DNA of 64,000 bases from contig CANOQG010000003.1 of the NCBI GenBank assembly GCA_947568835.1, positions 826,001-890,000 on the forward strand. The letters are read 5' to 3'. The position numbers were made by a program, and so were the translations under genes. The notes below the pieces were generated by a model. The model saw only the letters and a program-made list of their open reading frames with translations. It did not search any database and had not been told where the DNA came from. The stretch comes from Protonemura montana. Its lineage: Eukaryota > Arthropoda > Insecta > Plecoptera > Nemouridae. Below, one piece after another: positions 1 to 64,000 of this stretch. Position 1 is the first letter of the stretch, and each line of letters begins with the position of its first letter.

Positions 1-1
1 C

Positions 2-1054
2 ATTAAGCGTGGCGCGCTTTGGTCGTTGTTCCGCACCCTCGAGCTGCGCGCGAACATGCGCGCCAACCCAGGCGAAGTAGAGTTCGTCGAGTGGCTCTTG
101 CGTGTCGGAAACGGCGAGATTTTGAATGACTGCCACCTCCCGGATGACACCATCGCATTACCTGTCCAATGCGTCGTGGACTGCGTCATTGACGCCGTCT
201 TCGGCACGAGCATTAGTGCTGCCGAGATGGCCGTGATGCAAGACCATGCCATCCTCTGCCCGAAGAACGTGGAGTCTTTGAACATCAATGACAACGTTCT
301 TGAGCGCCTCGAAGGTGACGTGTTCGAATACTGCAGCGCCGACACTGTCGATGTCAGTGAAGGCGAAGATGGCGACGTTTTGGCTACCGATTATCCCGTA
401 GAATATCTAAATTCATTAACGCCATCCGGGATGCCACCGCACAAGCTTCGTCTGAAAGTTCATGCAATCGTGATGCTCATGAGGAACGTCGACGTGAGAG
501 CCGGCCTATGCAATAAGACTCGACTCAGCGTTGTTGCACTCCACGAGCACGTGATCGACTGCAGGATCATCGGAGGGCGCTGTGCGGGACGACGCACTTT
601 CCTATGTAGAGTCAACCTAACTCCCTCGGACATTGGCATGCCCTTTACGATGACAAGGCGCCAGTTTCCGATCCGTCTGGCATTCGCCATGACCATCAAT
701 AAAGCCCAGGGTCAATCTTTAAAGAGGGTGGGAATTCATTTAGAAAAACCAGTATTCGGACACGGTCAGCTATACGTGGCGCTTTCTCGGGCTCGCTCTT
801 TGGACTCGATCTTCGTGGCAGTCGCCGGTAACGAGGCGCAGGGCAAGTTGATCGTCTCGAGCAACACCACCTTCACCAAGAACATCGTGTACCAGGAGGT
901 GCTCGAGATTCATGCGCCGGACCACCAGGCAGCGGATCCTTCCTCGCGTAGTGGCTATCAAGAGGCTGACCAGCAGGCCCTTGAGCAGTCGCTTAGTCAA
1001 CTCGCTGTATCGGATGCGGATGAAGAAGTTCCAATGGACGCCTCCTCCTCCTAA
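2..1054 (+). CDS. Helitron Rep-helicase, C-terminal 350 residues (partial)
   Basis: This frame is open at the left edge and corresponds to residues 1567-1916 of the intact G2 protein. It covers the end of the PIF1-type helicase: LRANMRA, FAMTINKAQGQSL (motif V-like) and YVALSRA (motif VI, arginine finger region), then the acidic, Ser-rich tail ending MDASSS. One change stands out. The sequence CNGTRL found in the other three copies reads CNKTRL here (G1738K, two adjacent base changes at 515-516). NGTR is strongly conserved in Helitron and PIF1 helicases, so this copy may be impaired. No stop or frameshift is seen in the visible part, and whether the N-terminal part is intact cannot be told from this window. 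PIF1-family helicases unwind DNA 5' to 3'; in Helitrons this is thought to drive strand displacement during rolling-circle transposition. Confidence 0.93.
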   Translation: MKRGALWSLFRTLELRANMRANPGEVEFVEWLLRVGNGEILNDCHLPDDTIALPVQCVVDCVIDAVFGTSISAAEMAVMQDHAILCPKNVESLNINDNVLERLEGDVFEYCSADTVDVSEGEDGDVLATDYPVEYLNSLTPSGMPPHKLRLKVHAIVMLMRNVDVRAGLCNKTRLSVVALHEHVIDCRIIGGRCAGRRTFLCRVNLTPSDIGMPFTMTRRQFPIRLAFAMTINKAQGQSLKRVGIHLEKPVFGHGQLYVALSRARSLDSIFVAVAGNEAQGKLIVSSNTTFTKNIVYQEVLEIHAPDHQAADPSSRSGYQEADQQALEQSLSQLAVSDADEEVPMDASSS

Positions 1055-1344
1055 ATCCTATCATTGTACTATCCCTTACATTTGCAATAGCGGTAACATT
1101 TCCTAGATAAATTTAAATTCAGTAAGGCTGGGTAGGGCAGACCAGGAACCGTGACTAGCACGGCAGGTAGCAACCCAATTCCCATATATTTCACCATGCT
1201 GACACGCTTTTCTGCTGCAGGTGTAAAGCACCGGACGCCGCATAGCCCTTTAACTTCACGACCATTGCGCTCGCATGTGGACACTCTAACGGAACTGCTC
1301 CTCCCAGAGCTAGACAATTATGCATGTACATTAATTGATAGATT

Positions 1345-2093
1345 ATATTGTACATACATTTAGTAAAGTAGTTACTTCTAACTAATAGTATTAGAAATGC
1401 AGCCTGCTGTTTTACAAAAAATGCATGTTCAAAAAAACAAAAAAACAAAAAAAAAATCATAGATTTAGTAAAGTAGTTACTAAGTAGTAAGTAGTAGTAG
1501 TTGGTTAGTAAGTAGTTAATAGTTATGCAACCTGTTGTTTTCCATCTGCATGTCATGCATGTTCAAAAAAACAAAAAAACAAAAAAAAAATCATAGATTT
1601 AGTAAAGTAGTTACTAAGTAGTAAGTAGTAGTAGTTGGTAAGTAAGTAGTTAATAGTTATGCAACCTGCTGTTTTCCATCTGCATGTCATGCATGTTCAA
1701 AAAAATAAAATAAAAAAAAAATCATATATTTAGTAAAGTAGTTACTAAGTAGTAAGTAGTAGTAGTAGTTGGTAAGTAAGTAGTTAATAGTTATGCAACC
1801 TGCTGTTTTCCATCTGCATGTCATGCATGTTCAAAAAAAAAAAATAAAAAAAAAATCATAGATTTAGTAAAGTAGTTACTAAGTAGTTAGTAGTAGTAGT
1901 TGGTAAGCAAGTAGTTTATAGTTATGCAACCTGCTGTTTTCCATCTGCATGTCATGCATGTTCAAAAAAACAAAAAAAAAAAAAAAAATCATAGATTTAG
2001 TAAAGTAGTTACTAAGTAGTAAGTAGTAGTAGTAGTTGGTAAGTAAGTAGTTAATAGTTATGCAACCTACTGTTTTCTATCTGCATGTTTGCA
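1345..2093 (+). repeat. 3' tandem repeat family A, six units
   Basis: Direct repeats of about 131-135 bp (the first is shorter) start near 1359, 1462, 1597, 1728, 1862 and 1995. Each unit runs from TTTAGTAAAGTAGTTACTAA through stacked GTAGTAA/GTAGTAG runs and TGCATGTCATGCATG to an A-rich run that varies in length. The GTAGTA and GCATG motifs are themselves short repeats. The array follows the stop codon by about 290 bp. Confidence 0.9.
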
Positions 2094-2144
2094 ATTTTTT
2101 TAAGGTCACAATCTTACTTTCGTGTCGGTCTTTTTACTGCATGT

Positions 2145-2538
2145 TTCTCTTTTCTTGATTCCATCTTGGAATGTCAAACCAACTAACCACCAAGCATGAT
2201 AGCATTGCACCAGTCTAAAAACTGAACAATGCATCCTACCTATCCGACACAGTTGATCCTTGCATGAATCCTTGCATCTCTCTTCTCGATTCCATCTTGG
2301 AATGCCAAACCAACTAACTACCAAGCATGATAGCATTGCACCAGTCTAAAAACTGAACAATGCATCCTACCTATCCGACACAGTTGATCCTTGCATGTAT
2401 CCTTGCATCTCTCTTCTCGATTCCATCTTGGAATGCCAAACCAACTAACTACCAAGCATGATAGCATTGCACCAGTCTAAAAACTGAACAATGCATCCTA
2501 CCTATCCGACACAGATCCTTGCATGTATCCTTGCATGT
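2145..2538 (+). repeat. 3' tandem repeat family B, 131 bp, three copies
   Basis: GATTCCATCTTGGAATG recurs at 2157, 2288 and 2419, a period of exactly 131 bp. Each unit also contains CAAGCATGATAGCATTGCA and CCTACCTATCCGACACAG. TTCCATCTTGGAA is an inverted repeat within each unit. No coding potential is supported. Confidence 0.9.
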
Positions 2539-2630
2539 CCGCACATCAGAGATTCCTGTTGCTTGCAACGGGCTGCACAATCTTTGATAGTGTAAGGCAG
2601 AGGCGATGTAGTGTGCGACGATCGCCATGC

Positions 2631-2657
2631 TGCCGGGGCGGGATGGGGGCCCCGGCA
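2631..2657 (+). other. GC-rich hairpin in 3' region
   Basis: TGCCGGGGC pairs perfectly with GCCCCGGCA (9-bp stem) around the 9-base loop GGGATGGGG. It is conserved in all four G units and lies in otherwise AT-rich DNA. It is not followed by CTRR, so it is not the element end. It could be a transcript 3' structure or a replication pause site; the sequence alone cannot decide. Confidence 0.75.
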
Positions 2658-2659
2658 TA

Positions 2660-3478
2660 ACAATTATTTTTAAAATTCTCTCAATTAACAGCTTGAATAC
2701 ATTTAGAAACTTTTTTTTTCTCCAAGAATGGTGCCTCTCTCTTGCCGTCTTTTTTATTTTGTTTTAGACCCCCTGCCCCTGCCAATCGTGGAGAAGGAAC
2801 TTCTTTATGGCACCATTGCGGAGATTACTTTCAATTACGAATGAACAGTGGCGATACTGCGACATGGCAGTTCTGCATTGACTGTTGCTTTCAAATGGTC
2901 AATGTTTTTAACGCAAATCGTCGTAACCATGTGAATATTTCTTATATTTGTAAGAATGATCATAATATTGGCAAATAAAAATTACAATAATTAATAGGTA
3001 CATTTTTTTTTGTTTAATCTTCAAAAAAAAACCTTCGTCACTGAAACCAAACCAAAAATATTTGTCCTTTCTGTCCAAAAAGCACACCAAATGGTTGTGT
3101 CCTTATAAGCAATGCTGCTGGTTAGCCATCATCGTTGAAGGTACTGGCGGAAATCAGGTAAGGTATGGTATATCAAGTCGTAAGGGCATAATACTTTGTT
3201 TTCTTGACATTTTCTCAGTACTTTATTTTGTTGTCCCATAAAAGTTTCTTAAATGTATGCGTAGAGGCTACATTAAGTGTAAAGTCTCAGTTCGGTCCCA
3301 GGGCTTAGGGACTAGATTTTGGCCTAGGCCCATATATTTTTGTCATGATCTATCCTATCGGCATATGCCCTATGGGCATAGGGTACTAGAAAAACAGTAG
3401 TGAGCTTTTTGTAATTGTTAATCCAAGTACAAAGACAATACTAATACTAAAATAAAACCACTAGGGATAAGAACAACA
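2660..3478 (+). other. Non-coding 3' region of G0
   Basis: This stretch is AT-rich, without credible ORFs, and conserved in G1, G2 and G3. It contains AATAAA at 2974-2979 as the best candidate poly(A) signal, about 1.9 kb after the stop codon, and the proximal terminus-like hairpin at 3364-3389. Confidence 0.6.
3364..3389 (+). other. Proximal Helitron 3'-end-like hairpin
   Basis: TATGCCC-TAT-GGGCATA is a perfect 7-bp stem with a 3-base loop. GGGTA and then CTAG (3386-3389) follow at once. This copies the layout of the distal terminus at 3479-3506 (hairpin, GGGTACTG, CTAG) 115 bp upstream of it. It is present only in G units. Confidence 0.65.
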
Positions 3479-3523
3479 GGTGCCGTTAGGCATCGGGTAC
3501 TGCTAGTTAACCTTATATAAAAG
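3479..3523 (+). other. Helitron-like 3' terminus and unit junction 1 (G0/N1)
   Basis: GGTGCC-GTTA-GGCATC forms a 6-bp stem (one G-T wobble) with a 4-base loop. After 8 bases comes CTAG at 3503-3506, followed by T. A hairpin a few bases before a CTRR end is the classic Helitron 3' signature. G units and N units share this ~28-bp block although the sequence upstream of it is unrelated, as expected for the 3' end of one Helitron family. Immediately downstream, TTAACC and the TATA-like TATATAAAAG (3514-3523) begin the next unit. Confidence 0.8.
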
Positions 3524-4714
3524 CTTTAAATCGCGATGTTCAACTTTTTAGTTTGTGGGTATATGGCTGGGTGGGTGGCTGGCTGGGATGTAACCGGCTG
3601 CTCTACTGGTAATGGAAATTGCGAAATGCGACTGAAAACGTATGGAAATGGGCTAGAATTTTTCAGAATTAACTTTAACATTGGCAGGCGACATTTTCAC
3701 AGTGATTTAAAATCGTTTTCATGGTGAAAAGTTGCTAAATATGACGGCAAGATATCTCAGAGCCAGGCGATGCAACTCGATTTTTTAAATTCTTTTAAAA
3801 CTCAAATTTTTCTAGCCTCGAGCTTCGCGGTGATTTCATGCATTCGTATTAAAGTTGTTGATGTTATTGAGCGAAAACACATTCAATTGCGATCGTTTTA
3901 CGTGAAAAAGAATTAATTTTGCTAATAAACTGACATCTTTGATCAATTGTTTGCTTTTTTGACACCACGGCAAGGTGTGCGAAATCGTGAATGTATCTTT
4001 TCGGCAGTGAACCTAGGCTATTCAAACGTCAAATTCAACGTCAAAGTCAACGTCAATGTCAAATTAGTTTCGAAATCTCCAGAACTGAAGGAAAAACGTG
4101 TGAAATTGGCTTATATTGGTTCAAATTCAGGTTTACATTCCGCTACGTCTTTTTCACGGTGATTTTTAAGTGCATTATTATAGTAAAGTATCAAAAATAT
4201 TGTTGATGTCTTGGCAAGCAAAGTCAAGGAAAGTTAAACAATCTATTAACACAACTATTGGAATATTTTGTAAATATATTTAAAGATATTTATTGTTAAT
4301 AGTATACGAAAGTCAAGAAATTTCTTAAAATACGACGATTTTTCTCCATCCCCAGCCTAGACAAGATCATACAGTTGATTCCAAGCCATCAATGATATTT
4401 GTGACAATTATGTAAATCAATAGCAATCCTAACTTTCTTTGCAGGTCTTTAAGACATTAGATAGGGTTTTCAAACAAACAAAACATACTTTATTAGTTTT
4501 TTATTGATGATTTTGCCAAAACTAGGTTTAGAGTGACATTGACAGATCAAAGATAAACATTTGACAGATATCTTTCATCGAATCAGGACGCCGTGGATAT
4601 TTATTTTATTTTCGGGGATGCCGTGATCATTCAACAGGTATTTAAATTCAATACGTCATTAATGACAGAGTGCAGTTTTATCAAATCTAATCCAAATACG
4701 CAATCTAAGTTTAA

Positions 4715-7012
4715 TATGGTTTTCTATGGAATTGTATAATATTATATAGTACTTTATGGTGTTATATGGTAGTCTATGTTATTCTATGGTATTCTATGGT
4801 ATTCTATGGAGTTCTAAGGTATTTTATGATATTGTTTGGTATTCTATGATATTTTTGGGTATTGTATGGTATTCTATGGAGTTCTATGGTATTCTATGAT
4901 ATTGTATGGTATACTATAGTATTCTATGGTATACTATGGTATTCTATGGTATTCTATGGTATTATATGGTATTCTATGGTATTCTATAGAATTCTATGGT
5001 ATTCTATGGTATTCCATGGTATTCTATGGAGTTCTATGGTATTCTATGATATTGTATGGTATACTATAGTATTCTATGGTATACTATGGTATTCTATTGT
5101 TTCTATGGTATTTTATGGTATTCTATAGTATTCTATAGTATTCAATGGTAATCTATGGTATTCTATGGTATTCTATGGAGTGCTATGGTACTCTATGGTA
5201 TTCTATGGAGTGCTATGGTATTCTATGATTTTCTATGGTATTGTATGGTATTCTATGGTATTCTATAAAGTGCTATGGTATTCTATGATATTATATGGTG
5301 TGGTATGGTATTCTATGGTATTCTATGGTATTCTATTGATTTCTATTGTATTCTATGATATTGTATGGTATTGTAAGCTATTGTATGGTATTGTATGGTA
5401 TTCTATGGTATTGTTTGGTATTCTATGGTGTTCTATGGTATTGTATGGTATTGTATTGTATTATATGGTATTCTATGGAGTTTAATGGTATTCTATGGTA
5501 TTCTATCATATTCTATGGTATATTATGGTATTCTATGGTATTCTATGGTATATTATGGTATTCTATGGTATTCTATGGTATTTTATGGTATTCTATGGTA
5601 TTCTTTGGTATTCTTTGGTATTCTATGATATTGTATGGTATTCTATGGAGTGCTATGGTATTCTATGGAGTGATATGATATTCTATGATATTGTATGGTA
5701 TTAAATGCTATTGTATGGTATTGTTTAGTATTGCATGGTATTGTATGGAGTTCTATGGTATTCTATGGTATTGTTTGGTATTCTATGGTGTTCTATGGTA
5801 TTGCATGGTATTGTTTTGTATTATATGATATTCTATGGAGTTTAATGGTATTCTATGGTATTCTATCATATTCTATGGTATATTATGGTATTCTATGGTA
5901 TTCTATGGTATATTATGGTATTCTATGGTATTCTATGGTATTTTATGGTATTCTATGGTATTCTTTGGTATTCTTTGGTATTCTATGATATTGTATGGTA
6001 TTCTATGGAGTGATATGATATTCTATGATATTGTATGGTATTATATGCTATTGTATGGTATTGTTTAGTATTGCATGGTATTGTATGGAGTTCTATGGTA
6101 TTCTATGGTATTGTTTGGTATTCTATGGTGTTCTATGGTATTGCATGGTATTGTTTTGTATTATATGATATTCTATGGAGTTTAATGGTATTCTATGGTA
6201 TTCTATGGTATTCTATGGTATTTTATGGTATTCTATGGTATTCTTTGGTATTCTATGGTATTCTTTGGTATTTTTTGGTATTCTCAGGTATTGTATGGTA
6301 TTGTATGGTATTCTATCGTATTGTTTGGTATTCTTTGGTGTTCTTTTGTATGCTATGATAGTTTTTGGTATTCTATGGAATTCTATGGAGTTCTATGATA
6401 TTTAATGATATTCTATGGTTTTCTATGGTTTTCTATGGTATTCTATGGTATTCTATGGTATTCTTTGGTATTATATGGTATTGTATGGTATTCATTGGTA
6501 TTATATGGTATTATTTGGTTTTGTTTGAAAGTGTATGGTATTAAATGTTATTGGATGGTATTCTATAAAATTTTATGGGTTTCTTTGATATAATATGCTC
6601 TCTATGGTATTTGGAGGTATTCGATAGTATTATTTGCTATCCTATGATGTTGCAAGGAATGGTATGGTATTCCATATGTTCTTATGGTTTTCTATATTAT
6701 TTTATGGTATTTTTTGGTATCCTCTGGTATTTTATGAGTTTCAATGGATTTCTATTGTATAAAAAGATACTTTATGGTGTTGCTAGGAATTGAATGGTAT
6801 TCGATGATATAGTTTGACATTCTTAGGTATTGTATGGTATTGTATGGTATTCTAAGTACTCTTTGGTATTGTATGATATTGTTAGGTATTTTATGGGTTT
6901 GTTAGGTATTATATGGGTTCGTTTGGTATTTTATGGCATTTTATGGTATTGTATTGTATTGAATGGAATTTTATGGTTTTCCTAGGGTTTCTTTGGTATT
7001 GAATGGTTTTCT
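4715..7012 (+). repeat. Decamer satellite array of N1
   Basis: Degenerate tandem copies of TATGGTATTC (variants TATGGTATTG, TATGATATTG, TATGGAGTTC). Most of it holds a strict 10-bp register; the last 500 bp is more degenerate. A higher-order repeat is visible: 5461 onward recurs at 5821 (360 bp) and 5701 onward at 6041 (340 bp). The + strand consensus has no stop codon in any frame, which creates meaningless ORFs. Confidence 0.95.
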
Positions 7013-7013
7013 A

Positions 7014-7098
7014 TCAAAGAAAACTCAAAACACGTTAAAAACCAAAATGCCCACTCCCTCAAAATCGTAAGGTGCCGTTAGGCAGCGGGTACTGCTAG
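7014..7098 (+). other. N1 terminal block, TC...CTAG
   Basis: An 85-bp block starts TCAAAGAAAACTC (preceded by A) and ends with the hairpin and CTAG (followed by T). All N units have it, with 84-85 bp and the same left edge, whatever sequence precedes it. Confidence 0.75.
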
Positions 7099-7115
7099 TT
7101 AACCTTATATAAAAG
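7071..7115 (+). other. Unit junction 2 (N1/G1)
   Basis: The hairpin is GGTGCC-GTTA-GGCAGC (5 of 6 pairs), CTAG is at 7095-7098 and the TATA-like box at 7106-7115. The right arm reads GGCAGC where junction 1 has GGCATC. Confidence 0.8.
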
Positions 7116-8326
7116 CCTTAAATTGTGATGTTCAACTTTTTAGTTTGTGGGTATATGGCTGGCTGGCTGGCTGGGTGGCTGGGATGTAACCGGCCGCTCT
7201 ACTGGTTATGGAAATTGTGAAATGAGACTCAAAACGTACGAAAATGGGCTAGAATTTTTCAGAATTAACTTTTACATTGGCAGGCGACATTTTCACAGCG
7301 ATTTAAAATCGTTTTCATGGTGAAAAGTTGCTAAATATGACGGCAAGATATCTCAGAGCCAGGCGATGCAGCTCGATTTGATAATTCTTTTAATACTCAA
7401 GTTTTTCTAGCCTGGAGCTTCTCGGCGCATTTTAATGCATTCGTATTAAAGTTGTTGATGTAATTGAGCGAAAACACATTCAATTGCGATCGTTTTACGT
7501 GAAAAAGAATTAATTTTGCTAATAAACTGACAGCTTTGATCAATTGTTTGCTATTTTGACACCACGGCAAGGTGAACGAAATCGTGAATGTATCTTTTCA
7601 GCAGTGGATCATCAGGCCAAATTAAACGTCAAAATGGGTTGAAATGTCAAACTATCAACTAAAACCCCTTTGTTTCTGGCGAAAATCTGTCAAAAACGAC
7701 AGGAAATGGTTATAATTTGTACCTGATTTCAAAGCACTTTATGAAACGCGACATTTTTAAGGTGAGTTGATGGGATACGGCGATTTAAACAGGATTTTAA
7801 ATTAAACTTCATATGAAACTGGTGAGTAAGGAAAAAGTTTGACTTATAACAGGCGTAAAAATCGTATTTTTACGTATTTTATGTAATATTTATAAATATA
7901 AATATTTTATTATATTGTATTGTATACAAAAGACAAAAAATTCTTTAAAATACGACGATTTTACTCCATCCCCAGCCTAGACAAGATCACGCAGTTGATT
8001 CCAAGCGATCAATGATATTTGTGGCATTAATGCAAATTATCAGTAACTTTAACGGATTTCGCAATCTTTAAAGGCATAAAATAGAGTTTTTTCAACAACT
8101 AAGACACACTTGATTAGTTTCTTATTGATAATTTTGCCAAAACTAGATTTAGAGTGACATTGACAGATCAAAGATAAACATTTGATGGATGTTTTTCATC
8201 GAATCAGGACGCCGTGGATATTTATTTTATTTTCGAGACTGCCGTGATCGTTCAACAGGTATTTAAATTCAAAACGTCATTAATTACAGAGTGCAGCTTT
8301 AAAAAATCTGATCCAAATACGCAATC

Positions 8327-8592
8327 TATGGTTTAATATGGTTTTCTATGAAATTGTATGGTATTGTATTGTATGGTATTGTTTGGTTATTTACGGTATT
8401 CTATGGAATTGTACAGTATTTTATGGTATTGCATGGTAAAGTATGGTATTTTACGGTATTCTATGATATTCTATGGTATTGTATGGTATTGTTTGGTATA
8501 ATATGGAATTGTATGGTATTTTATGGTATTGCATGGTATTGCATGGTATTGCAAGCTAAAGTATGGTATTCTATGGTATTCAATGGTTTTTT
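8327..8592 (+). repeat. Short decamer array in G1 leader
   Basis: About 26 degenerate units of the N-unit decamer, many as TATGGTATTG or with inserts such as GGTAAAG. The array ends at TTTTTTACAGGCG, and the gene-proximal region follows. Confidence 0.9.
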
Positions 8593-9016
8593 ACAGGCGT
8601 AAAAATAGTATATTTATTAAACATTTTGTGTTCAATTGTGTTTCTTTAATGAGTTTTCAGATAACTTTAGTAGTGATTTAACCCGTAATTAATAAGCTAA
8701 CCTCTAAAGACACATTATTATGATCACTGACCACAATAGTTTGACTTCTGGCTTCATTTATTTACAGCGTGTAGCATCGACAGCTTCTTATGGCACGTAA
8801 TTTAAATCGTCGCGCGTGGTGTAAAAGTTTGAATTTGCGTGACGTCATTTTACGTAGCGGGATGTTGGTTACCGCTTTTTGATCGGCATCTACGCTCGGC
8901 AATTAGTCACACTCCCAAAGCTCGCCAACCGCCATTTGCTAAAGCAGTTAGTCGAGCATGAGAGTGCGGATTACCTACACGGCGAAACACGGGGAAGAAT
9001 TTCGTCGCTATTCAAG
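8593..9016 (+). promoter_or_regulatory. Probable promoter and first non-coding exon of G1
   Basis: This region is conserved in G1, G2, G3 and, as far as visible, G4, and precedes the probable 5' splice site at 9016/9017. It contains a perfect palindromic CRE, TGACGTCA, at 8840-8847 (CREB/ATF-type site). A YY1-like ACCGCCATTTGC lies near 8929-8940. No TATA box is obvious next to the gene, so transcription may start from a TATA-less promoter here. The start site is not determined. Confidence 0.5.
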
Positions 9017-9502
9017 GTAATCTTATTTCAGATTTAATTTGCATGTCACAATATCCAGTAATAGTCAACCACTAATATCATCAAGTGATTCAATAATTTA
9101 TAGTGATTTTATAGCGTTAAGCTTCTTAATTATTAAAATTATCGTTCATCATCAAGACTGGAAAGCATACATTTTGCCCGTCTTGTGGATATTTCCATGA
9201 CGTCATTTTTACGTAACATGATGCAATCGCTCGACGCGATTCTCATCCCCCTCCCCAACCCTCCCATGCCCTCCGTTCCAACAATTAGAAGTGTGTTCAA
9301 CATGGCGTCCAAGCTCGCATTCGAAGCAAATTAGCATATTTCTTTGTAAAGAAACTGAAGTGATTGTTGTGCATATTAAAGCATACATTTAGCCTGGCAT
9401 GATATTTGCGTGAGATCATTTTTACGAAACTTCGTGCTCAGCCACGCTCCGCTTCAGCTCGGCGACGCTAGGCACTACTAAAGCCTCGCTTTCTTCACAC
9501 AG
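9017..9502 (+). other. Probable 5'UTR intron of G1
   Basis: The donor TTCAAG|GTAATC and the acceptor CTTTCTTCACACAG| abut the ATG at 9503, giving 486 nt. G2 and G3 have the same signals at equivalent places (496 nt). A second palindromic CRE is at 9198-9205 inside it. A ten-codon ORF (ATGGCGTCC to TAG, near 9301) also lies inside and would be removed by splicing. Confidence 0.5.
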
Positions 9503-16231: not shown

Positions 16232-16232
16232 G

Positions 16233-49968: not shown

Positions 49969-50329
49969 ATCCTATCATTGTACTATCCCTTACATTTGCA
50001 ATAGCGGTAACATTTCCTAGATAAATTTAAATTCAGTAAGGCTAGGTAGGGCAGACCAGGAACCGTGACTAGCACGGCAGGTAGCAACCCAATTCCCATA
50101 TATTTCACCATGCTGACACGCTTTTCTGCTGCAGGTATAAAGCACCGGACGCCGCATAGCCCTTTAACTTCACGACCATTGCGCTCGCATGTGGACACTC
50201 TAACGGAACTGCTCCTCCCAGAGCTAGACAATTATGCATGTAAATTAATTGATAGACCTATCGTAGATTTGGTAAAGGTACTTCAAATTTGAATGCTGTT
50301 AAAAAAAAAAAAAAAAAAAAAAAATATAT

Positions 50330-50685: not shown

Positions 50686-50735
50686 GTAATTTTTTAACGT
50701 CACAATCTTACTTTTGAGTCGGTCTTTTTACTGCA

Positions 50736-50872
50736 TGTTTCTCTCTTCTTGATTCTATCTTGGAATGTCAAACCAACTAACCACCAAGCATGATAGCATT
50801 GCATCAGTCTAAAAACTGAACAATGCATCCTACCTATCCGACACAGTTGATCCTTGCATGAATCCTTGCATG
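50736..50872 (+). repeat. 3' repeat family B in G3, single copy
   Basis: One copy with TGATTCTATCTTGGAATG. Its 3' half starts the near-identical duplicated block. Confidence 0.8.
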
Positions 50873-50965
50873 TCCGCACATCAGAGATTCCTGTTGCTTG
50901 CAACGGGCTGCACAATCTTTGATAGTGTAAGGCAGAGGCGATGTAGTGTGCGACGATCGCCATGC

Positions 50966-50992
50966 TGCCGGGGCGGGATGGGGGCCCCGGCA
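50966..50992 (+). other. GC-rich hairpin of G3
   Basis: Identical stem and loop to G0, G1 and G2. Confidence 0.75.
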
Positions 50993-51824: not shown

Positions 51825-51869
51825 GGTGCCGTTAGGCATCGGGTACTGCTAGTTAACCTTATATAAAAG
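51825..51869 (+). other. Unit junction 8 (G3/N5)
   Basis: GGCATC hairpin form. CTAG at 51849-51852, TATA-like box at 51860-51869. Confidence 0.8.
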
Positions 51870-54800
51870 CTTTAAATTGCGATGTTCAACTTTTTAGTTT
51901 GTGGGTATATGGCTGGCTGGCTGGGTGGCTGGGATGTAACCGGCCGCTCTACTGTTTATAGAAATTGCGAAATTCGACTAAAAACGTACGGAAATGGGCT
52001 AGAATTTTTCAGAATTAACTTTTCCATTGGCAGGCGACATTTTTACAGCGATTTAAAATCGTTTTCATGGTGAAAAATTGCTAAATATGACGGCAAGATA
52101 TCTCAGAGTCAGGCGATGCAACTCGATTTTTATAACTCTTTTTATACCAAAGTTTTTCTAGCCTGGAGCTCCACGGTTATTTTTCATGCATTCGTATTAA
52201 AGTTGTTGATGTAATTGTGCAAAAACACATTCAATTGCGATCGTTTGACGTGAAAAAGAATACATTTTGCTAATAAACTGACAGCTTTGATCAATTGTTT
52301 GCTATTTTGACACCACGGCAAGGTGTACGAAATCGTGAATGTATCTTTTCGGCAGTGCATTCAGGAAATTCAAACGTCAAATTTAAACGTCAAAGTCAAC
52401 GTCAATGTCAAATTCTTTTAAAAATCTCCAAAACTGTAGGGAAAACGTGTGAAATTGGCTCATATTGTCCTTATAGAGTTTTACATCGCGCTACGTCTTT
52501 TTTACGATGATTAAAAAGTGCTTTAGTATAGTAAAGTATCAAAAATATTGTTGGTGTTCGGCTAGCAAGATACAAAAGAGTCACTTGATTCATCTCGACA
52601 TTGCATGGTATTGTATATGATTGTATTATACTGCATGGTATTGTATGGTATTTTATTGTTATATATGGTATTCTATGGTATTCTATGGTATTTTATAATA
52701 TTCTATGGAGTTCTATGGTATTCTATGATATTGTATGGTATTCTATGGTATTCTATGGTATTTTATAATATTCTATGGAGTTCTATGGTATTCTATGATA
52801 TTGTATGGTATTCTATGGTATTCTATGGTATTCTATGGTATTCTATGGTATTCCATGGTATTCCATGGAGTAATATGGTATTCTATGATATTATTTGGTA
52901 TTCTATAGTCTTCTACGGTATTCTATGGTATTCTATGGTATTCTATTGTATTCTATTGTATTCTATGGTATTCTATGGTATCCTCTGGAGTTCTATGGTA
53001 TTCTATGGTAATGAATGGTCTTCTATGGTCTTCTATGGTATTTTATGATATACTATGGTATTCTATGGTATTCTATGGTATTCTATGGTATTCTATGATA
53101 TTGTATTGTATTGTTTAGAATTCTATGATATTCTATGGTATTTTTGGGTATTCTATGGTATTCTATGGCATTTTATGATATTTTTGGGTATTTTTTGGTG
53201 TTCTATGATATTGTATTGTATTCTTTGGTATTCTATGATATTCTATGGTATTCTATTGCATTTTATGGTATTCTATGATATTGTATGGTATTGTATGGTA
53301 TTGTATGGTATTGTATGATATTCTATGGTATTCTCTGGTATTTTAATGGATTTCTATAGTATTCTATGATAGTCTATGGTATTCTATAGTAATCTATGGT
53401 ATTATTTAGAGTTCTATGGTATTCTATGATATTGTATGGTATTGTATGGTATTCTATGGGGTTCTATGGTATTCTATGATATTGTATTCTATTCTATGGT
53501 GTTCTATGGTATACTATGGTATTCTATGGTATTCTATGGAGTTCTATAATATTGTATGATATACTATGATATTCTATGGTATTGTATGGTATTCTATGAT
53601 ATTCTATGGTATTCTTTGGTATTCTCTGGTATTCTCTGGTACTCTTTGGTATTCTTTGGTATTTTATGGAGTTCTATGGTATTCTATTGTATTCTATGGG
53701 GTTCTATGGTATTGTTTGGTATTCTATGGTATTCTCTGGTATTCTCTGGTATTGTATGGTATTGTGTGGTATTCTATGGTGTTCTATGGTATACTATGGT
53801 ATACGATGTTATTCTATGGAGTTATATTGTATTATATGGTATTCTATGGTATTGTATGGTATTCTATGGTATTCTTTGGTATTCTATGGTATTCTATGGT
53901 ATTCTATGGTATTCTATGGTATTGTATGGTATTGTTTGGTATTCTATGGTATTCTATGGTATTCTATGGTATTGTATGGTATTGTGTGGTATTCTATGGT
54001 GTTCTTTGGTGTGCTATGGTATACTATGTTATTATATGGAGTTATATTGTATTATATGGTATTCTATGGTATTGTATGGTATTCTATGGTATTCTATGGT
54101 ATTCTTTTGTATCCTATAGTATTCTATGGTATTCTATGGTATCCTCTGGAGTTCTATGGTATTCTATGGTAATGAATGGTCTTCTATGGTATTTTATAAT
54201 ATACTATGGTATTCAATGGTATTCTATGGTATTCTATGGTATTCTATGGTATTTTATGGTATTTTTGGGTATTCTATGGTATTCTATGGCATTTTATGGT
54301 ATTTTTTTGGTATTTTTTTGTGTTCTATGATATTTTATTGTATTCTTTGGTATTCTATGATATTCTATGGTATTCTATTGCATTTTATGGTATTATATAA
54401 TATTGTATGGTATTGTATGGTATTGTTTGGTATTGTATGATATTCGATGATATTCTATGGTATTTTTATGGATTTCTATAGTATTCTATGATAGTCTATG
54501 GTATTCTATAGTAATCTATAGTATTATTTAGAGTGCTATGGTTTTCTATGATATTGTATGGTATTGTATGGTATTTTTTGGTATTCTCTGGTATTCTATG
54601 GTACTCTTTGGTATCCTTTGGTATTTTATGGAGTTCAATGGTATTCTATGGTATTCTATGGGGTTCTATGGTATTCTATGATATTGTATTGTATTCTATG
54701 GTGTTCTATGGTATACTATGGTATTCTATGGTATTCTATAGAGTTCTATAATATTGTATGATATACTATGATATTCTATGGTATTCTATGGTATTCTATG

Positions 54801-55848
54801 ATATTCTATGGTATTCTTTGGTATTCTCTGGTATTCTCTGGTACTCTTTGGTATTCTTTGGTATTTTATGGAGTTCTATGGTATTCTATGGTATTCTATG
54901 GGGTTCTATGGTATTCTATGATATTGTGTGGTATTCTATGGTGTTCTATGGTATACGATGTTATTCTATGGAGTTATATTGTATTATATGGTATTCTATG
55001 GTATTGTATGGTATTCTATGGTATTCTTTGGTATGATATGGTATTCTATGGTATTCTATGGTATTCTATGGTATTCTATGGTATTGTATGGTATTGTTTG
55101 GTATTCTATGGTATTGTTTGGTATTCTATGGTATTCTCTGGTATTGTATGGTATTGTATGGTATTGTGTGGTATTCTATGGTGTTCTATGGTATACGATG
55201 TTATTCTATGGAGTTATATTGTATTATATGGTATTCTATGGTATTGTATGGTATTCTATGGTATTCTTTGGTATTCTATGGTATTCTATGGTATTCTATG
55301 GTATTCTATGGTATTCTTTGGTATTGTATGGTATTGTTTGGTATTCTATGGTATTCTATGGTATTCTATGGTATTGTGTGGTATTCTATGGTATTCTATG
55401 GTGTTCTTTGGTGTGCTATGGTATACTATGTTATTCTATGGAGTTATATTGTATTATATGGTATTCTATGGTATTCTTTGGTATTCTATGGTATTCTATG
55501 GTATTCTATGGTATTCTATGGTATTCTATGGTATTCTATGGTATACTTTGGTATTCTATGGAGTTCTATGATATTGTATGGTATTGTATGGTATTCTTTG
55601 GTATGCTATGTTATTGTTTGGTATTTTATGGTGTTCAATAGTATTCTATGATATTGTTTGGTATTCTATGGTATTCTATAGAATTCTATGGTTTTCAATG
55701 GTATTCAATGGTATTGTATGGTATTGTATGGCTGTGGTCCTTTTAAGAGGCTTTGGATAGGGCATCAAAGAAAATTCGAGACACGTTTAAACCAAAATGC
55801 CCACACCCTCAAAATCTTAAGGTGCCGTTAGGCAGCGGGTACTGCTAG
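51853..55848 (+). mobile_element. N5: non-autonomous unit, near-copy of N3
   Basis: Leader 51853-52599, decamer array 52600-55730, terminal block 55765-55848. It differs from N3 at only a handful of bases. Confidence 0.75.
52600..55730 (+). repeat. Decamer satellite array of N5
   Basis: Same higher-order pattern as N3, including the 240-bp spacing (GGTATACGATG near 54950 and 55190). Confidence 0.95.
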
Positions 55849-55865
55849 TTAACCTTATATAAAAG
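55821..55865 (+). other. Unit junction 9 (N5/N6)
   Basis: GGCAGC hairpin form. CTAG at 55845-55848, TATA-like box at 55856-55865. Confidence 0.8.
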
Positions 55866-58739
55866 CTTTAAAATTGTGATGTTCAACTTTTTAGTTTGTG
55901 GGTGGGTGGCTGGGTGGATGGGTGGCTGGGATGTAACCGGCCGCTCTACTGGTTATGGAAATTGCGAAATGCCACTCAAAACGTACGGAAATGGGCTAGA
56001 ATTTTTCAGAATTAACTTTTCCATTGGCAGGCGACATTTTGACAGCGATTTGAAATCGTTTTCATGGTGAAAAGTTGCTAAATATGACGGCAAGATATCT
56101 CAGAGCCAGGCGATACAGCTCGATTTTTAAAACTCTTTTTATACCAAAGTTTTTCTAGCCTTGAGCTCCACGGTTATTTTTCATGCATTTGTAATAAAGT
56201 TGTTGATGTAATTGAGCAAAAACACATGCAATTGCGATCGTTTAACGTGAAAAAGAATTAATTTTGCTAATAAACTGACAGCTTTGATCAATTGTTTGCA
56301 TTTTTGACACCACGGCAAGGTGTACGAAATCGTGAATGTATCTTTTCGGCAGTGCATTCAGGAAATTCAAACGTCAAATTTAAACGTCAAAGTCAATGTC
56401 AAATTCAATTTCAAAATCTCCAAAACTGAACGGAAAACGTGTGAAATTGGCTTCTATTGTTCAAATACAGTTTAACATCCTGCTACGTCTTTTTCACGAT
56501 GATTTAAAAGTGTTTTAGTAAAGTAAAGTATCAAAAATATTGTTGGTGTTCGGCTAGCAAGATACAAAAGAGTCACTTGATTCATCTCGACATTGCATGG
56601 TATTGTATATGATTGTATTATACTGCATGGTATTGTATGGTATTTTATTGTTATGTATGGTATTCTTTGGTGTTGGATGTTTTTGGATGGTATTTTATAT
56701 TATTGTTTGATATTGTATGGTATTCTTTAGTATTCGACAGTATTCTATGGTATTCTATGGTATTCTATGGTATTCTATGGTATTCTATGGTGTTCTATGG
56801 TGTTCTATGGTGATCTATGGTGTTCTATGGTATCCCATGGTATTCTTTGGTATTCTATGGTATTCTATAATATTCTATGAATTTCTATGGTATTGTATGG
56901 TATTGTATGGTATTGTATGGTATTCTAAGGTATTCTTTGGTATTCTTTGGTGTTCTATGGTGTTCTATGGTGTTCTATGGTATTCTATGGTATTCTATGG
57001 TATTCTATAATATTCTATGACGTTCTATGGTATTCTATGATATTGTATGGTATTGTATGGTATTGTATGGTATTCTATGGTATTTAATGGTATTCTATGG
57101 AGTTATATGGTATTCTATGATATTGTATGGTATTCTATGGTCTTCTAAGGTATTCTATGGTATTCTATGGTATTCTTTTGTATAATATAATATTATATAG
57201 TATTCTATGGTATTCAATGGTATTCTATGGTATTTTATAATATTCTTCGGAGTTCTATGGTATTATATGGAGTTAATGGTATTCTATGGTGTTCTATGGT
57301 GTTCTATGGTGTTTTATGGTATTTTATTGTGTTCTTTGGTGTTCTATGGTATACTATGGTATTCTTTGGTGTTCCATGGTGTTCTATAGTATTCTATGGT
57401 ATTCTATGGTATTCTATTGTGTTCTATGGTATTCCATGGAGTTCTATGGTATTCTATGGTATTCTTTAGTATTCTATGGAGTTATATAGTATTCTATTAT
57501 ATACTATGGTATTCTATAGAGTTCTATGGTGTTCTATGATATTCTATGGTATTCTATGGTCTTCTATGGTATTCTATGGTATTCTATGGTAATCTTTGGT
57601 GTTCTATGGTATTCTATGGTGTTCTATGGTATTCTAAGGTATTCTATGGTATTCTTTAGTATTCCATGGTATTCTAAGGTATTCTATGGAGTTCTATGGT
57701 ATTCTTTGATATTGTATGGTATTCTATGGTATTCTATGGAATTCTATGATATTGTATGGCATTGTATGGTGTTCTATGGTATTCTATGGTATTCTATGAT
57801 ATTCTACGGTATTCTATGGTATTCTATGGTATTTTATGGTATTCTATGGTATTCTTTGGTATTCTATGGTAATCCATGGTATTCTATGGTATTCTTTGGT
57901 ATTCTAAGGTATTCTTTGGTATTCTATGGTGTTATTTGGTATTCTATGGTATTCTTTGATATTGTATGGTGTTCTATGGTATTCTATGGAATTCTATGAT
58001 ATTGTATGGCATTGTGTGGTATTCTATGGTATTCTATTGTATTCTTTGATATTGTATGGTATTATATGGTATTCTTTGGAATTTTATGATATTGTATGGT
58101 ATTCTATGGTATTCTATGGTATTTTATTGTATTGTATTGTATTCTATGGTATTCTATGGTATTGTATGGTATTGTTCGGTTTTGTTTGGAAGTGTATGGT
58201 ATTAAATGTTTTTGGATGGTATTCTATGAAATTTTATGGGTTTCTTTGATATAATATGTTTCTTTATGGTATTTTAAAGTATTCGATAGTATTATTTGGT
58301 ATCCTATGATGTTGTATGGAATGGTATGGTATTCCATATGTTCCTATGGGGTATTATATTATTTTATGGTAGTTTTTGGTATCCTCTGGTATTTTATGAC
58401 TTTCAATAGATTTCTATTGTATAAGAAGATACTTTATGGTGTTGTTAGGAAATGAATGGTATTCGATGATACAGTTTGGTATTTTTAGGTATTCTATTGT
58501 ATTGTATGGTATTCTAGGTCCCATTTGGTATTGTATGATATTGTGTGGTATTTAATGGGTTTGTTTGGTTTTTTATGGCATTTTATGGTATTGTATTGTA
58601 TTGAATGGAATTTTATGGTTTTCTTAGGGTTTCTTTGGTATTGAATGGTTTTCTATCAAAGAAAACTCGAGACACGTTTAAACCAAAATTCCCACTCCCT
58701 CAAAATCGTAAGGTGCCGTTAGGCATCGGGTACTGCTAG
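55849..58739 (+). mobile_element. N6: shortest non-autonomous unit
   Basis: 2,891 bp. Its first ~450 bp belongs to the near-identical block shared with N4. The decamer array is only ~2.1 kb. The degenerate array end (GGTATTGAATGGTTTTCT) is like N1 and N4. Terminal block 58656-58739. Confidence 0.75.
56591..58654 (+). repeat. Decamer satellite array of N6
   Basis: Related to N4 (TATATGGAGTTAATGG at ~57267, 340-410 bp blocks) but shorter, suggesting loss or gain of higher-order blocks since the two units split. Confidence 0.95.
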
Positions 58740-58756
58740 TTAACCTTATATAAAAG
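58712..58756 (+). other. Unit junction 10 (N6/N7)
   Basis: GGCATC hairpin form. CTAG at 58736-58739, TATA-like box at 58747-58756. Confidence 0.8.
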
Positions 58757-61700
58757 CTTTAAAATGCGATGTTCAACTTTTTAGTTTGTGGCTGGCTGGC
58801 TGGGTGGGTGGCTGGCTGGGATGTAACCGGCTGCTCTACTGGTAATGGAAATTGCGAAATGCGACTGAAAACGTATGGAAATGGGCTAGAATTTTTCAGA
58901 ATTAACTTTTACATTGGCAGGCGACATTTTCACAGTGATTTAAAATCGTTTTCATGGTGAAAAGTTTCTAAATATGACGGCAAGATATCTCAGAGCCAGG
59001 CGATGCAGCTCGATTTTTATAACTCTTTTAATACCAAAGTTTTTCTAATCTCGGGCTTTTCGGTTATTTCACATGCATTCGTATTAAAGTTGTTGATGTA
59101 ATTGAGCGAAAACACATTCAATTGCGATCGTTTTACGTGAAAAAGAATTAATTTTGCTAATAAACTGACATCTTTGATCAATTGTTTGCTCTTTTGACAC
59201 CACGGCAAGGTGTACGAAATCGTGAATGTATCTTTTCGGCAGTCTACCTAGGATTTTCAAACGTCAAATTCAAACGTCAAAGTCAACGTCAAAGTCAACG
59301 TCAATGCAAATTCTTTTCAAAATCTCCAGAACTGAAGGAAAAACGTGTGATTATTTTGGTTCTTTATTCAGGATTTAATCCCGCTACGTCACGGTGATTT
59401 TAAAGTGCATTATTATTATTAGAGTAAAGTATCAAAAATATTGTTGGTGTCTTGGCTAGCAAGATGAAAAATAGCCACTTGACAAGCCCGTGGCATTCTT
59501 GTGGAGGTTATTTACACGTCAAAAAGGTTTGAAAAGTTAAACAATCTATTAACACAACTATTGGAATCTTTTGTAAACATATTTAAAGATATTTATTGTA
59601 AATAGTATACGAATGACGAGAAATGTCGTGAAAATACGACGATTTTTCTTCATCCCCTGCCTAGATAAGATCACACAGTTGATTCCAAGCCATCAATGAT
59701 ATTTGTAACTATTATGTAAATCAATAACAATCCTAACTTTCTTTGCAGGTCTTTAAGACATTAAATAGGGTTTTTAAACAAACAAAACACACTTCATTAG
59801 TTTTTTATTGATAATTTAGCCAAAACTAGATTTAGAGTGACACTGACAGATCAAAGATAAACATTTGACAGATATCTTTCATCGAATCAGGACGCCGTGG
59901 ATATTTATTTTATTTTTGAGGATGCCGTGATCATTCAACAGGTATTTAAATTCAAAACGTCATTAATGACAGAGTGCAGTTTTATCAAATCTAATCCAAA
60001 TACGCAATCTAAGTTTCATATGGTTTTTTATGGAATTGTATAATATTGTATAGTAATTTATGTTGTTATATGGTAGTTTATGGTTTATAGTTATGGTAGT
60101 TTATTTAGTTCTATGGTATTGGATGTTATTGGATGGTATTAAATATTATTGTTTGATATTGTATGGTATTGAATGAAGATGTATGGTATTCTATAGTATT
60201 CGACAGTATTTAATGGTATTCTATGGTATTCTATGGTATTCTATGGTATTCTATGGTATTCTATGGTATTCTATGGTATTCTTTGGTATTCCATGGTATT
60301 CTATGATATTGTATTGTATTCTTTGGTATTCTATTATATTCTCTGGTATTCAATGGCATTTTATGGTATGATATGGGTATATATGGTATTATTTGGTATT
60401 CTATGTAGTTCTTTGGTATTATATGATATTGTTTTGTATTCTTTGGTATTCTATGGTATTCTATGGTATTCTATGAAGTTATTTGATGTTAAAAGATATT
60501 GTATGGTATTGTATAGTATTCTCTGATATTCTATGGTACTCTTTGGTATTCTTTGGTATTTTATGGAGTTCTATGGTTTTGTATGATATACTATGGTATT
60601 CTATGGTATTCTATGGTTTTCTATGGTATTGTTTGGTATTCTATGTTGTAATATGGTATACTATGGTATTCTATAGTATTCTATGGAGTTCTATGGTATT
60701 GTATGTTATACTATGGTATCCTATGGTATTCTATGATATTCTATGATATTCTTTGGTATTCTTTAGTATGCTATGGAGTTCTATGGTATTCTATGATATT
60801 CTATGGAGTTCTATGATATTGTATGGTATTCTATGGTATTCTATGGTATTCTTTGGTATTCTATGGAGTTCTATAGTATTCTATTATATACTATGGTATT
60901 CTATAAAGTTATTTGGTATTCTATGATATTCTATTGTGTTCTATGGTGTTCTATGGTATTCTATGGTATTCTATGGTTTTCTTTGGTGTTCTATGGTGTG
61001 CTATGGTTTTCTATGGTATTCTTTGGTATTGTTTGGTATTTTATGGTATTGTATGGTATTGTATGGTATTGTATGATATTCTTTGGTATTCTTTGGTATT
61101 CTATGGTGTTTAATGATGTTCTATGGTATTCTATGGTGTTCTATGGTATTCTTTGGTATTCTTTGGTATTCTTTGGTATTGTATGGTATTTTATGGTATT
61201 GTATGGTATGGTATGGTATTGTATGATATTCTTTGGTATTCTTTGGTATTCTTTGGTATTTTATGGAGTTCTATGGTATCCTATAATATTGTATGGTATT
61301 CTATGGTATTCTTTGGTATTCTTTGGTATTCAGATGATAAAGTATGGTATTCTTTTGTATTGTATGGTATTCTATGAAGAAATATGGTATTCTATGATAT
61401 TGTATGGTATTGTATGGTATTCTATAGATTTCTTTGGTTTTCTATGATATTGTATAGTATTCTATGGTATTCTTTGGTATTCTCTGGTATTCTATGGTAC
61501 TATTTGGTATTTAATGGAGTTCTATGGTATTATCTGGTATTCTATGGTATTATATGGGGTTCTATGGTACTCTAAGATATTGTATGGTATTCTATGGTAT
61601 TCTATGGTATTCTATGGAGTTCTATTGTATTTTATGTTATTCTATGGAGTTCTATGGTATTCTTTGATATTGTTTGGTATTCTATGATATCGTATGATTT

Positions 61701-62164
61701 TGTTTGGTATTCTATGGTATTCTATGGTATTGTATGGTATTCTATGGTAATCTATGGTATTTTATGGTATTCTATGGTATACTTTGGTATTCTATGGTGT
61801 TCTCTGGTATTTTATAGTATTCAATGGAGTTTTATGGTATTCTATGATATTGTTTGTTATTCTTTGATATTGTTTAGTATTGTATGGTATTCTTTGGTAT
61901 TCTATGGTATTGTTTGGTATTCTATGGTGTTCTATAGTATTCTATGATATTGTTTGGTATTCTATGGTATTCTATGGTATTCTATGGTATCCTTTAGTAT
62001 TCTATGGTGTTCAATGGTATTCTATGGTATTGTATGGTATTGCATGGCTGTGGTCCTTTTAAGAGGCTTTGGATAGGGCATCAAAGAAAACTCGACAAAC
62101 GTTTTAACTAAAATGGCCACACCCTCAACATCAACTGCAGCCGTTAGGCAGCGGGTACTGCTAG
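58740..62164 (+). mobile_element. N7: non-autonomous unit
   Basis: The leader 58740-60011 is of the N1 type (CCTAGATAAGATCACAC, ACGCCGTGGATATTTATTTT), while its array end (CTGTGGTCCTTTTAAGAGGC) is like N2, N3 and N5. It therefore combines the leader of one subtype with the tail of another. Terminal block 62081-62164. Confidence 0.75.
60012..62046 (+). repeat. Decamer satellite array of N7
   Basis: Degenerate TATGGTATTC repeats. Two similar stretches near 61040-61110 and 61170-61250 repeat with ~150 bp spacing. Confidence 0.95.
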
Positions 62165-62181
62165 TTAACCTTATATAAAAG
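62137..62181 (+). other. Unit junction 11 (N7/G4)
   Basis: Left arm altered: GCAGCC-GTTA-GGCAGC (5 of 6 pairs, with an A-A mismatch). CTAG at 62161-62164, TATA-like box at 62172-62181. Confidence 0.75.
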
Positions 62182-63356
62182 CTTTAAAATGGCGATGTTC
62201 AACTTTTTAGTTTGTGGCTGGCTGGGTGGGTGGATGGGTGGCTGGGATGTAACCGGCCGCTCTACTGGTTATGGAAATTGTGAAATGCGACTGAAAACGT
62301 ACGGAAATGGGCTAGAATTTTTCAGAATTAACTTTTCCATTGGCAGGCGACATTTTCACAGCGATTTAAAATCATTTTCATGGTGAAAAGTTGCTAAATA
62401 TGACGGCAAGATATCTCAGAGCCAGGAGATGCAGCTCGATTTTTATAACTCTTTTAATACTCAAGTTTTTCTAGCCTGGAGCTCCACGGTGATTTTTCAT
62501 GCATTCATATTAAATTTGTTGATGTAAATGAGCGAAAACACATTTAATTGCGATCGTTTTACGTGAAAAAGAATTAATTTTGCTAATAAACTGACAGCTT
62601 TGATCAATTGTTTGCTTTTTTGACACCACGGCAAGGTGTACGAAATCGTGAACGTATCTTTTCAGCAGTGAATCTTTAGGCCAAATTAAACGTCAAAATT
62701 GGTTGAAATGTCAAACTTTCTACTAAAACCCCTTTGTTTCATGCGAAAATCTGTCAAAAACGACAGGAAATGGTTATAATTTGTACATGATTTCAAAGCA
62801 CTTTATGAAACGCGACATTTTTAAGGTGAGTTGATGGGATACGGCGATTTAAACAGGATTTTAAATTAAACTTCATATGAAACAGGTGAGTAAGGAAAAA
62901 GTTTGACTTATAACAGGCGTAAAAATCGTAATTTTACGTATTGTATGTAATTGTATACAAAAGACAAAAAATTCTTTAAAATACGACGATTTTACTCCAT
63001 CCTCAGCCTAGACAAGATCACGCAGTTGATTCCAAGCGATCAATGATATTTGCGGCATTAATGCAAATTATCAGTAACTTTAACGGATTTCGCAAGCTTT
63101 AAAGGCATAAAATAGAGTTTTTTCAACAACTAAGACACACTTGATTAGTTGTTTATTGATAATTTTGCCAAAACTAGATTTGGAGTGACACTGACAGATC
63201 AAAGATAAACATTTGATGGATGTTTTTCATCGACTCAGGATTCCGTGGATATTTATTTTATTTTCGAGAATGCCGTGATCATTCAACAGGTATTTAAATT
63301 CAAAACGTCATTAATTACAGAGAGCAGTTTAAACAAATCTGATCCAAATACGCAAT

Positions 63357-63723
63357 CTATGGTTTAATATAGTTTTCTATGGTAAATTGTATGAAACTCT
63401 TTGGTGTTATATGGTATTCTATGGTATTACGTGATATTATATGGTATTGTTTGGTTATTTATGGTATTCTATGGAATTGTACGGTTTTGTATGGTATTGT
63501 ATTGTATGGTATTCTATGGTATTCTATGATATTGTATGGAAATGTATGGTATCGTTTGGTATTCTATGTTATTCTTTGGTATTGTATGTTATATGTTATT
63601 CAATGGTATTCATTGGTATTGTATGGTTCTGTATGGTACTCTATGATATGGTATTGGTATTGTATGGTATGGTATGGTATTTCAAGGTAAAGTATGGTAT
63701 TCTATGATATTCTATGGTTTTTT
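63357..63723 (+). repeat. Short decamer array in G4 leader
   Basis: About 36 degenerate decamers with local breaks in register (GGTATGGTATGG). Ends at TTTTTTAACAGGCG, as in G1. Confidence 0.9.
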
Positions 63724-64000
63724 AACAGGCGTCCAAATTGTATTTTTAATGCACATTTTGTATTCAATTGTGTTTCAAAAATGAGTTTTCAGATATATTC
63801 AGTAGTGATTTAACCCGTAATTATTTAGCTAACCTCTAAAGACACATTATTATGATCACTGACCGCAATAATTTGACTTCTAGCTTCATTCATTTACAGC
63901 GTGTAGCATCGACAGCTTCTTATGGCAAGTAATTTAAATCGTCGCGCGTGGTGTAAAAGTTTGAATTTGCGTGACGTCATTTTACGTAGCGGGATGTTGG
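63724..64000 (+). promoter_or_regulatory. Start of G4 promoter-like region
   Basis: Aligns with the G1 region from 8593. Palindromic CRE TGACGTCA at 63972-63979. Cut by the window edge. Confidence 0.5.

Follow-up and report, generated by a model that had tools for sequence, protein, structure and literature searches.

The last 64 kb of contig C8 of Protonemura montana (C8:826001-890000, the whole stretch analysed here and called the window; C8 measures 890,000 bp in a genome of 258.5 Mb and 34 contigs) consist of Helitron units that follow each other head to tail, some carrying a gene for a RepHel protein, others gene-less. These units probably belong to a very long array of complete Helitrons that grew at its 5′ edge, through insertion of the family into an A|T that it targets in its own copies, and that was later reshaped by exchange.

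Junctions and units in the window

The sequence CTAGTTAACC occurs 11 times in the window, always on the plus strand (positions 3503, 7095, 17348, 21013, 32021, 36016, 40269, 51849, 55845, 58736, and 62161), whereas shuffled sequences contain it 0.11 times on average and twice at most. Each time, an identical 3′ terminus (CCGTTAGGCA[T/G]CGGGTACTGCTAG) abuts an identical 5′ terminus (TTAACCTTATATAAAAGC) without a gap, and these CTAG|TTAACC junctions split the window into 12 units on the same strand. An earlier note, made from the window alone, had claimed a Helitron array with exact junctions of a single type, and this holds. Gene-bearing (G) and gene-less (N) units succeed each other as G N G N G N N G N N N over units 1-11, with gene evidence in four G units (1, which is cut, 3, 5, and 8) and a ATGGTATTC satellite of 10-bp period in each of the seven N units. 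The proposal that the two kinds are partners with common ends is likewise confirmed: G and N units have about their first 500 bp in common (e.g., 92.9% identity over 508 bp between units 11 and 8), as well as their last ~30 bp, and both ends are present in all ten full units of the window. The earlier order ended on a further G; this last letter is only probable, as unit 12 (62165..64000) is cut by the contig end and contains no gene in its 1.8 kb, which are jointly spanned by two stretches resembling G unit 3, its start included.

All units lie on the plus strand and are delimited by the junctions. G unit 1 (1..3506, ending at the junction at 3503) is represented by its 3′ part, which encodes C-terminal Pif1-type domains; the 4 kb upstream in C8 continue this unit, so that the array extends beyond the window and its description as unusually long is upheld. 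It is followed by N unit 2 (3507..7098, with its satellite at 4715-7014), G unit 3 (7099..17351, with a frameshifted gene in two frames, 9503-11338 and 11253-15254, that was recognized with Pfam), N unit 4 (17352..21016, with satellite), and G unit 5 (21017..32024), whose intact RepHel gene (24192..29942) encodes 1,916 amino acids. Next come N unit 6 (32025..36019), N unit 7 (36020..40272), and G unit 8 (40273..51852), which contains a GCATA satellite (41610-42537), a 41-bp repeat (42629-43026), and a second intact RepHel gene for 1,916 amino acids (44218..49968). N units 9 (51853..55848), 10 (55849..58739), and 11 (58740..62164) precede the cut unit 12.

Part of this order is the product of a duplication, in which units 5-7 correspond to units 8-10 from the end of the G unit into the second N unit. 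The last ~1.1 kb of units 5 and 8 are 99.7-100% identical, units 6 and 9 are 99.92% identical, and the first 520 bp of units 7 and 10 are 99.8% identical. The series 1, 1, 2, 3 that the earlier note had read in the number of N units between genes gives no clear signal and was rejected as a meaningful pattern, being partly made by this duplication. The GCATA satellite and the 41-bp repeat differ strongly in length between unit 5 (22600-22802 and 22894-23002) and unit 8; the repeat finder reported neither of them in unit 3, where a GTATTGTATG stretch lies at 8356-8587 instead.

Ends of the element and genomic setting

In the genome-wide count of junctions against solitary ends that the earlier note had called for, 635 of the 944 exact 5′ ends are preceded by CTAG, 284 by A, and 25 by neither. 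True ends were read at 17 places, chosen by eye from the first 100 of 980 3′ ends and absent from the listed junctions, although one of them, L010, also contained a junction. All 18 non-junction 3′ ends of this sample precede T (L016 and L021 have the same flank), while 10 of the 11 non-junction exact 5′ ends, one of which lies on C7, follow A and the remaining one follows T; an additional 5′ match with three mismatches follows C. The element therefore runs from TTAACC to CTAG and is inserted between A and T, with a one-base ambiguity, since the element begins with the same base that follows CTAG. Solitary copies with different true ends, which the earlier note had envisaged as a refutation, were looked for; the solitary ends are identical to those of the array (A|TTAACC...CTAG|T), and an exact empty site exists (see below).

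Several places display unusual arrangements of these ends. An extra 11-bp copy of the element 5′ end precedes an array head at C1:282,869-282,879 (TTAACCTTATA|TTAACC, in L001), which recalls the multiple 5′ termini of Fusarium elements (PMC5148889). At C2:3,103,206-3,106,652 (L011), a copy inserted close to the 5′ end of another one, and oriented against it, has T, not A, as its 5′ flank. At C1:3,725,577 and 3,726,009, two arrays on opposite strands start with their heads facing each other across 431 bp.

What follows on the large arrays is based on the first 100 places listed per search and on ~290 kb of sequence read. The 48-base 3′ end of G units has 177 matches genome-wide (≤3 mismatches); among the first 100 of these, all exact, 48 are on C7 (18.7-920 kb) and 29 on C8 (to 740 kb), to which a script added four further exact ends in the window. 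Among the matches listed, their orientation changes in long runs, namely + (18), - (17), and + (13) on C7, and + (8), - (16), and + (9, including the four of the window) on C8. The first unit of C7 starts at 8,789 with A|TTAACC, and the 8.8 kb ahead of it gave no match to the window in a filtered comparison. At the other contig starts read, a 30-bp satellite (~333 copies, 74% matches) runs throughout the 10 kb of C8:1-10000 (L027), and satellites of 105 and 89 bp (98% matches) were found in C4:1-10000 (L028), C4 being a chromosome-scale contig in which Helitron ends and junctions in both orientations appear from ~70 kb.

A nested block shared by two contigs

The 5′ end of a minus-strand array adjoins the satellite of a plus-strand N unit at C8:675,427. 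From this position, the other edge of the block was predicted as a 3′ end lying in antisense satellite, between the last plus-strand and the first minus-strand G end. A pattern search found it at C8:277,534, and found the same edge at C7:341,157, along with eight further hits on other contigs or places. The minus-strand block of C8 thus occupies 398 kb at a single A|T within a plus-strand unit. Put together across the 398 kb, its two flanks form one uninterrupted N unit (805 + 2,196 bp), and the empty site (TTGTTA|TGTATGG) is matched across the join, with no base gained or lost, by four relatives: S12, S14, and window units 4 and 10. Unit 4 is a relative of the N unit that houses the block elsewhere on C8. 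Other N units align across the join with gaps.

The right-hand edge has exactly two matches in the genome (≤3 mismatches), C8:675,427 and C7:704,021. As the same edges are found on C8 and C7, a single insertion is present on both contigs, with blocks of 398 kb (C8) and 363 kb (C7). The 3′ flank is 99.6% identical between the two over 1,096 bp, and both blocks end in the same 3′-edge unit, which measures 4,274 bp on C7 against 4,283 bp on C8 and shows 98.2-100% identity across 500-bp windows; one unit further inward, identity falls to 90% and 83%. At the same A|T, the 5′ heads differ: a 3,248-bp unit followed by one of 4,355 bp, each having an N-type 3′ end, opens the block on C7, and a 9,236-bp unit that has a G-type 3′ end opens it on C8. 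A view of C7 and C8 as simple collinear alleles was considered and is not supported along their length, where only short runs of G spacings match, though the nested insertion is the same.

Small arrays on other contigs

Tandem formation is general and not limited to the giant arrays, because 17 of 24 insertion sites on C1 hold 2-5 units. Exact heads (A|TTAACC) number 24 on this contig and exact junctions 34, which together give 7 single copies and 17 arrays; all 34 junctions lie within 20 kb of a head on the same strand, and no exact array exceeds 5 units. Where the edges of small arrays were read, A was found at 8/8 5′ edges and T at 8/8 3′ edges, three arrays of one locus (D) sharing some flanks.

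Composition was studied in 49 units from 10 arrays, i.e., the window and nine arrays at seven loci (A, B, C, Da/Db/Dc, E, F, and G), unit B5 being cut by the end of the stretch read. Ten of the 49 units, A9 and nine from the window, have no full-length relative at another sampled locus and were left out; of the remaining 39, 35 resemble such a relative more closely than either of their neighbors. Some of these relatives are very close: F4 on C1 and A4 on C2 are 99.7% and 99.4% identical to the same solitary copy on C1 (L009), B3 on C1 has its match, at 99.4%, in the solitary copy L022 on C5, and F3 is 99.0% identical to G2. A diverged non-autonomous subfamily of ~920 bp (~81-85% identity to most others) is present as well, with three neighbors in L029 that resemble each other (97-99.7%) and one related unit in L038 (96-98%).

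A second case of polarity is provided by C1:282.5-297.4 kb, where three neighboring arrays share their two 3′ units (98.3-99.4% and 99.9-100% identity) and have extra units at their 5′ side that are unlike between arrays.

The RepHel gene and classification of the family

The 1,916-codon frame is intact in units 5 and 8, whereas the gene of unit 3 is frameshifted near codon 600 and that of unit 1 has one in-frame stop ~1.1 kb upstream of the window. Pfam domains of the unit 5 protein are STPR repeats, Helitron_like_N (E 5.8e-61), which carries the Rep part, PIF1 (E 3.7e-56), and Pif1_2B. Its residues 372-1868 align with the solved chain of Helraiser (7lcc_A, 1278 bits), including the GLPHAHI and KYLCKYVYKG stretches, which we take to have a catalytic role. 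The genes of units 5 and 8 differ by 32 synonymous and 55 non-synonymous codons; because 41 of these 55 fall within the first 408 residues, where the STPR repeats sit, the N-terminal part may be fast-evolving or shuffled. In the window, the repeats are 69 bp long at the DNA level and present in ~7 copies per gene (10136-10638, 24825-25327, and 44851-45351). A protein search of the genome, in which 25 of 2,074 candidates were scored so that its counts are lower bounds, gave at least 30 matches, at least 20 of them full-length, and at least 18 of those 20 without a stop. A separate STING-domain search, with solved structures as a further comparison, yielded similarity to STING chains that was weak throughout (best E 3.1e-05).

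The fusion of Rep with a Pif1-type helicase, and an insertion that left no target-site duplication, as judged for the nested block from the four relatives inspected, place the family within the Helitron superfamily on the basis of its sequence. Canonical features include the A|T target, with A before 284 of 309 non-junction exact 5′ ends, and a 3′ end of the CTRR type, CTAG, at all 11 window junctions. Canonical Helitrons carry a hairpin 10-15 nt from the 3′ end; here, a 6-bp stem lies 12 nt before the 3′ end of unit 5 (31997..32024, one of the 11 termini; folding -3.9 kcal/mol) and an interrupted stem in unit 2, with z scores of -0.77 and -1.57 that are not significant against shuffles. Helraiser has a 3′ CTAG, as here, and a hairpin. 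Since the 5′ end begins with TT rather than the canonical TC, TTAACC being found at the 11 window junctions and in all copies read, the family is not filed as strictly canonical. Helentrons (Helitron2) insert between T and T, which the same 284 of 309 ends with A do not follow; passages of PMC4067079 further describe sub-terminal inverted repeats near both ends of these elements.

Among the known systems, Helraiser (Helibat1, a canonical bat Helitron) has a RepHel that can be aligned with this one, over the residues given above. It differs from the present family in its 5′ end, which is reported as TC, and in being a reconstructed element, not an array; STPR repeats at the 5′ end of the RepHel gene are prominent here. 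Tandem Helitrons are themselves known. Published accounts report that the genomes of plants and bats contain tandem arrays and head-to-tail junctions (PMC5876387), that copies lie head to tail in bat and silkworm as here (PMC4067079, PMC5876387), and that plants have centromeric arrays of several to several hundred tandem repeats (Xiong 2016, as summarized in PMC12628747 and PMC5148889). According to these accounts, the plant copies are truncated, many arrays having several 5′ ends but a single 3′ end (PMC12628747), in contrast to window units that have both ends and in some cases intact genes. Three tandem Helitrons of the FoHeli-like fungal type are described in Metarhizium acridum, for which the passage concerned poses 5′ self-insertion against rolling-circle replication and contains no test between them (PMC5148889). 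Long mixed Helitron arrays were not recognized in a survey of titles and abstract openings, with subscription journals mostly outside its scope. Arrays of such length, built of complete and mixed units and growing in a polar way, look like a new form of tandem Helitron.

Origin of the arrays

The earlier note had connected the junction with a circular intermediate, and circles with exactly joined ends are reported for Helraiser. The junction as proof of circles had to be rejected, since insertion at the A|T of another copy's 5′ end yields the same letters; the mixed composition of the sampled arrays favors such insertion. A more general form of the idea is that of rolling-circle concatemers, produced by replication past the 3′ terminator or by repeated rounds of a circle and inserted whole as multimers. 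Bypass of the termination signal is the explanation advanced for bat and silkworm arrays (PMC4067079), and concatemers are likewise the published explanation for truncated plant arrays (PMC12628747). Such multimers should consist of like units, yet only one of 39 neighboring pairs in the sample is a twin (≥99%), leaving 38 that are not, and in 22/39 the best alignment covers <90% of the longer unit. The window units moreover retain both ends, unlike arrays without terminators, and the unit beside the shared 3′-edge unit differs between the two copies of the nested block. As a general origin, concatemers are thus unlikely. A related possibility is that RepHel starts at one 5′ end, skips terminators and moves several units at once, end bypass being documented for Helitrons in a passage of PMC5148889. 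Neighbors should then travel together; in this limited sample of 10 arrays, however, none of 639 cross-locus comparisons of neighboring pairs shares both members at ≥98%, and the four shared unit pairs found are all within A or within locus D, which makes multi-unit transposition improbable. Because of the mixed neighbors and the absence of shared pairs, both explanations are a poor fit to most of the junctions sampled.

Unequal exchange, conversion, and segmental duplication could also have amplified a few founder arrays with little transposition. They can explain the near identity of units 6 and 9 and the duplicated block around them, the spacing runs repeated within C7 and between C7 and C8, and a 375-bp spacer repeated between the arrays of locus D. 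Alone, they bring no unlike units together, yet the sampled arrays in chromosome-scale contigs are mixed, and A4 and B3 match at 99.4% solitary copies that lie on other contigs. Events in the interior of an array should also leave both edges intact, whereas the 5′ heads of the nested block differ; addition at the 5′ edge is for this reason the better reading, and exchange as the main source of the arrays is rather unlikely. An assembly artefact might be suspected from C8 ending exactly at 890,000 and C7 at 925,000, as if cut during curation (a guess as to the cause). It is highly improbable, considering that the units differ among themselves, that identical junctions recur on several contigs in small arrays that have flanks of their own, and that the nested block has an exact empty site.

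The shared 3′ units and different 5′ units, at the nested block and on C1, suggest that arrays grow at their 5′ edge by addition of new copies. A copy integrated at A|T would keep an A|T at its own 5′ boundary, formed by the host A and the first T of TTAACC. In Helraiser, broadly, the RepHel protein works on the 5′ end of its own element when that element transposes. Obliged to bind and nick that end, the protein would use it as a preferred target, and each new copy would be set exactly upstream of an older one, creating CTAG|TTAACC. Growth would be restricted to the 5′ edge, because the junction (G|T) offers no A|T. Later unequal exchange or conversion would then duplicate blocks, such as units 5-7 and 8-10, which accounts for the duplicated block of the window and for the repeated spacing runs.

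Several observations weigh against growth by 5′ self-insertion, or limit it. Polarity is carried by two loci, and conversion at the head could imitate 5′ addition. Inside the block, on its 5′ side and 50-87 kb from the head, a run of three G spacings (~14.1, 10.1, and 9.2 kb) is common to both contigs, C7 and C8, so that exchange or conversion operates too. At C1:282.5-297.4 kb, arrays a and b share their 3′ flank while b and c share their 5′ flank; recombination was involved at this locus, since the flanks are only partly common to the three arrays. In the small arrays, identities to the nearest relative give no clear 3′-to-5′ age gradient, and by this measure the 5′-most units F1 and G1 are not the youngest. 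Concatemers or duplications also occur: B1 and B2 are twins (99.7%), the dimer A5A6 recurs as A7A8, and array C has three units that resemble each other at 97-99.7% and may stem from true concatemerization or from a local duplication. That the arrays of C7 and C8 continue without a break over 0.9 Mb is deduced from edges and listed ends, and we infer the self-targeting step itself, in which RepHel would present its own 5′ end as a target.

Significance

The origin of tandem Helitrons, by terminator bypass, circles, or 5′ insertion, is left open in the passage of PMC5148889 that deals with it. The mixed composition of the arrays, the empty site of the 398-kb block, and the combination of shared 3′ edges with different 5′ edges make this question directly testable. 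Whether the family targets the A|T at the 5′ ends of resident copies, thereby building self-extending intact arrays hundreds of kilobases long, is to our mind evenly balanced. If it does, this would constitute a route from intact, potentially active transposons to satellite-like DNA hundreds of kilobases in length, and the genome would harbor a chromosome component of satellite-like character, extended at one end and made of units that each remain mobile.

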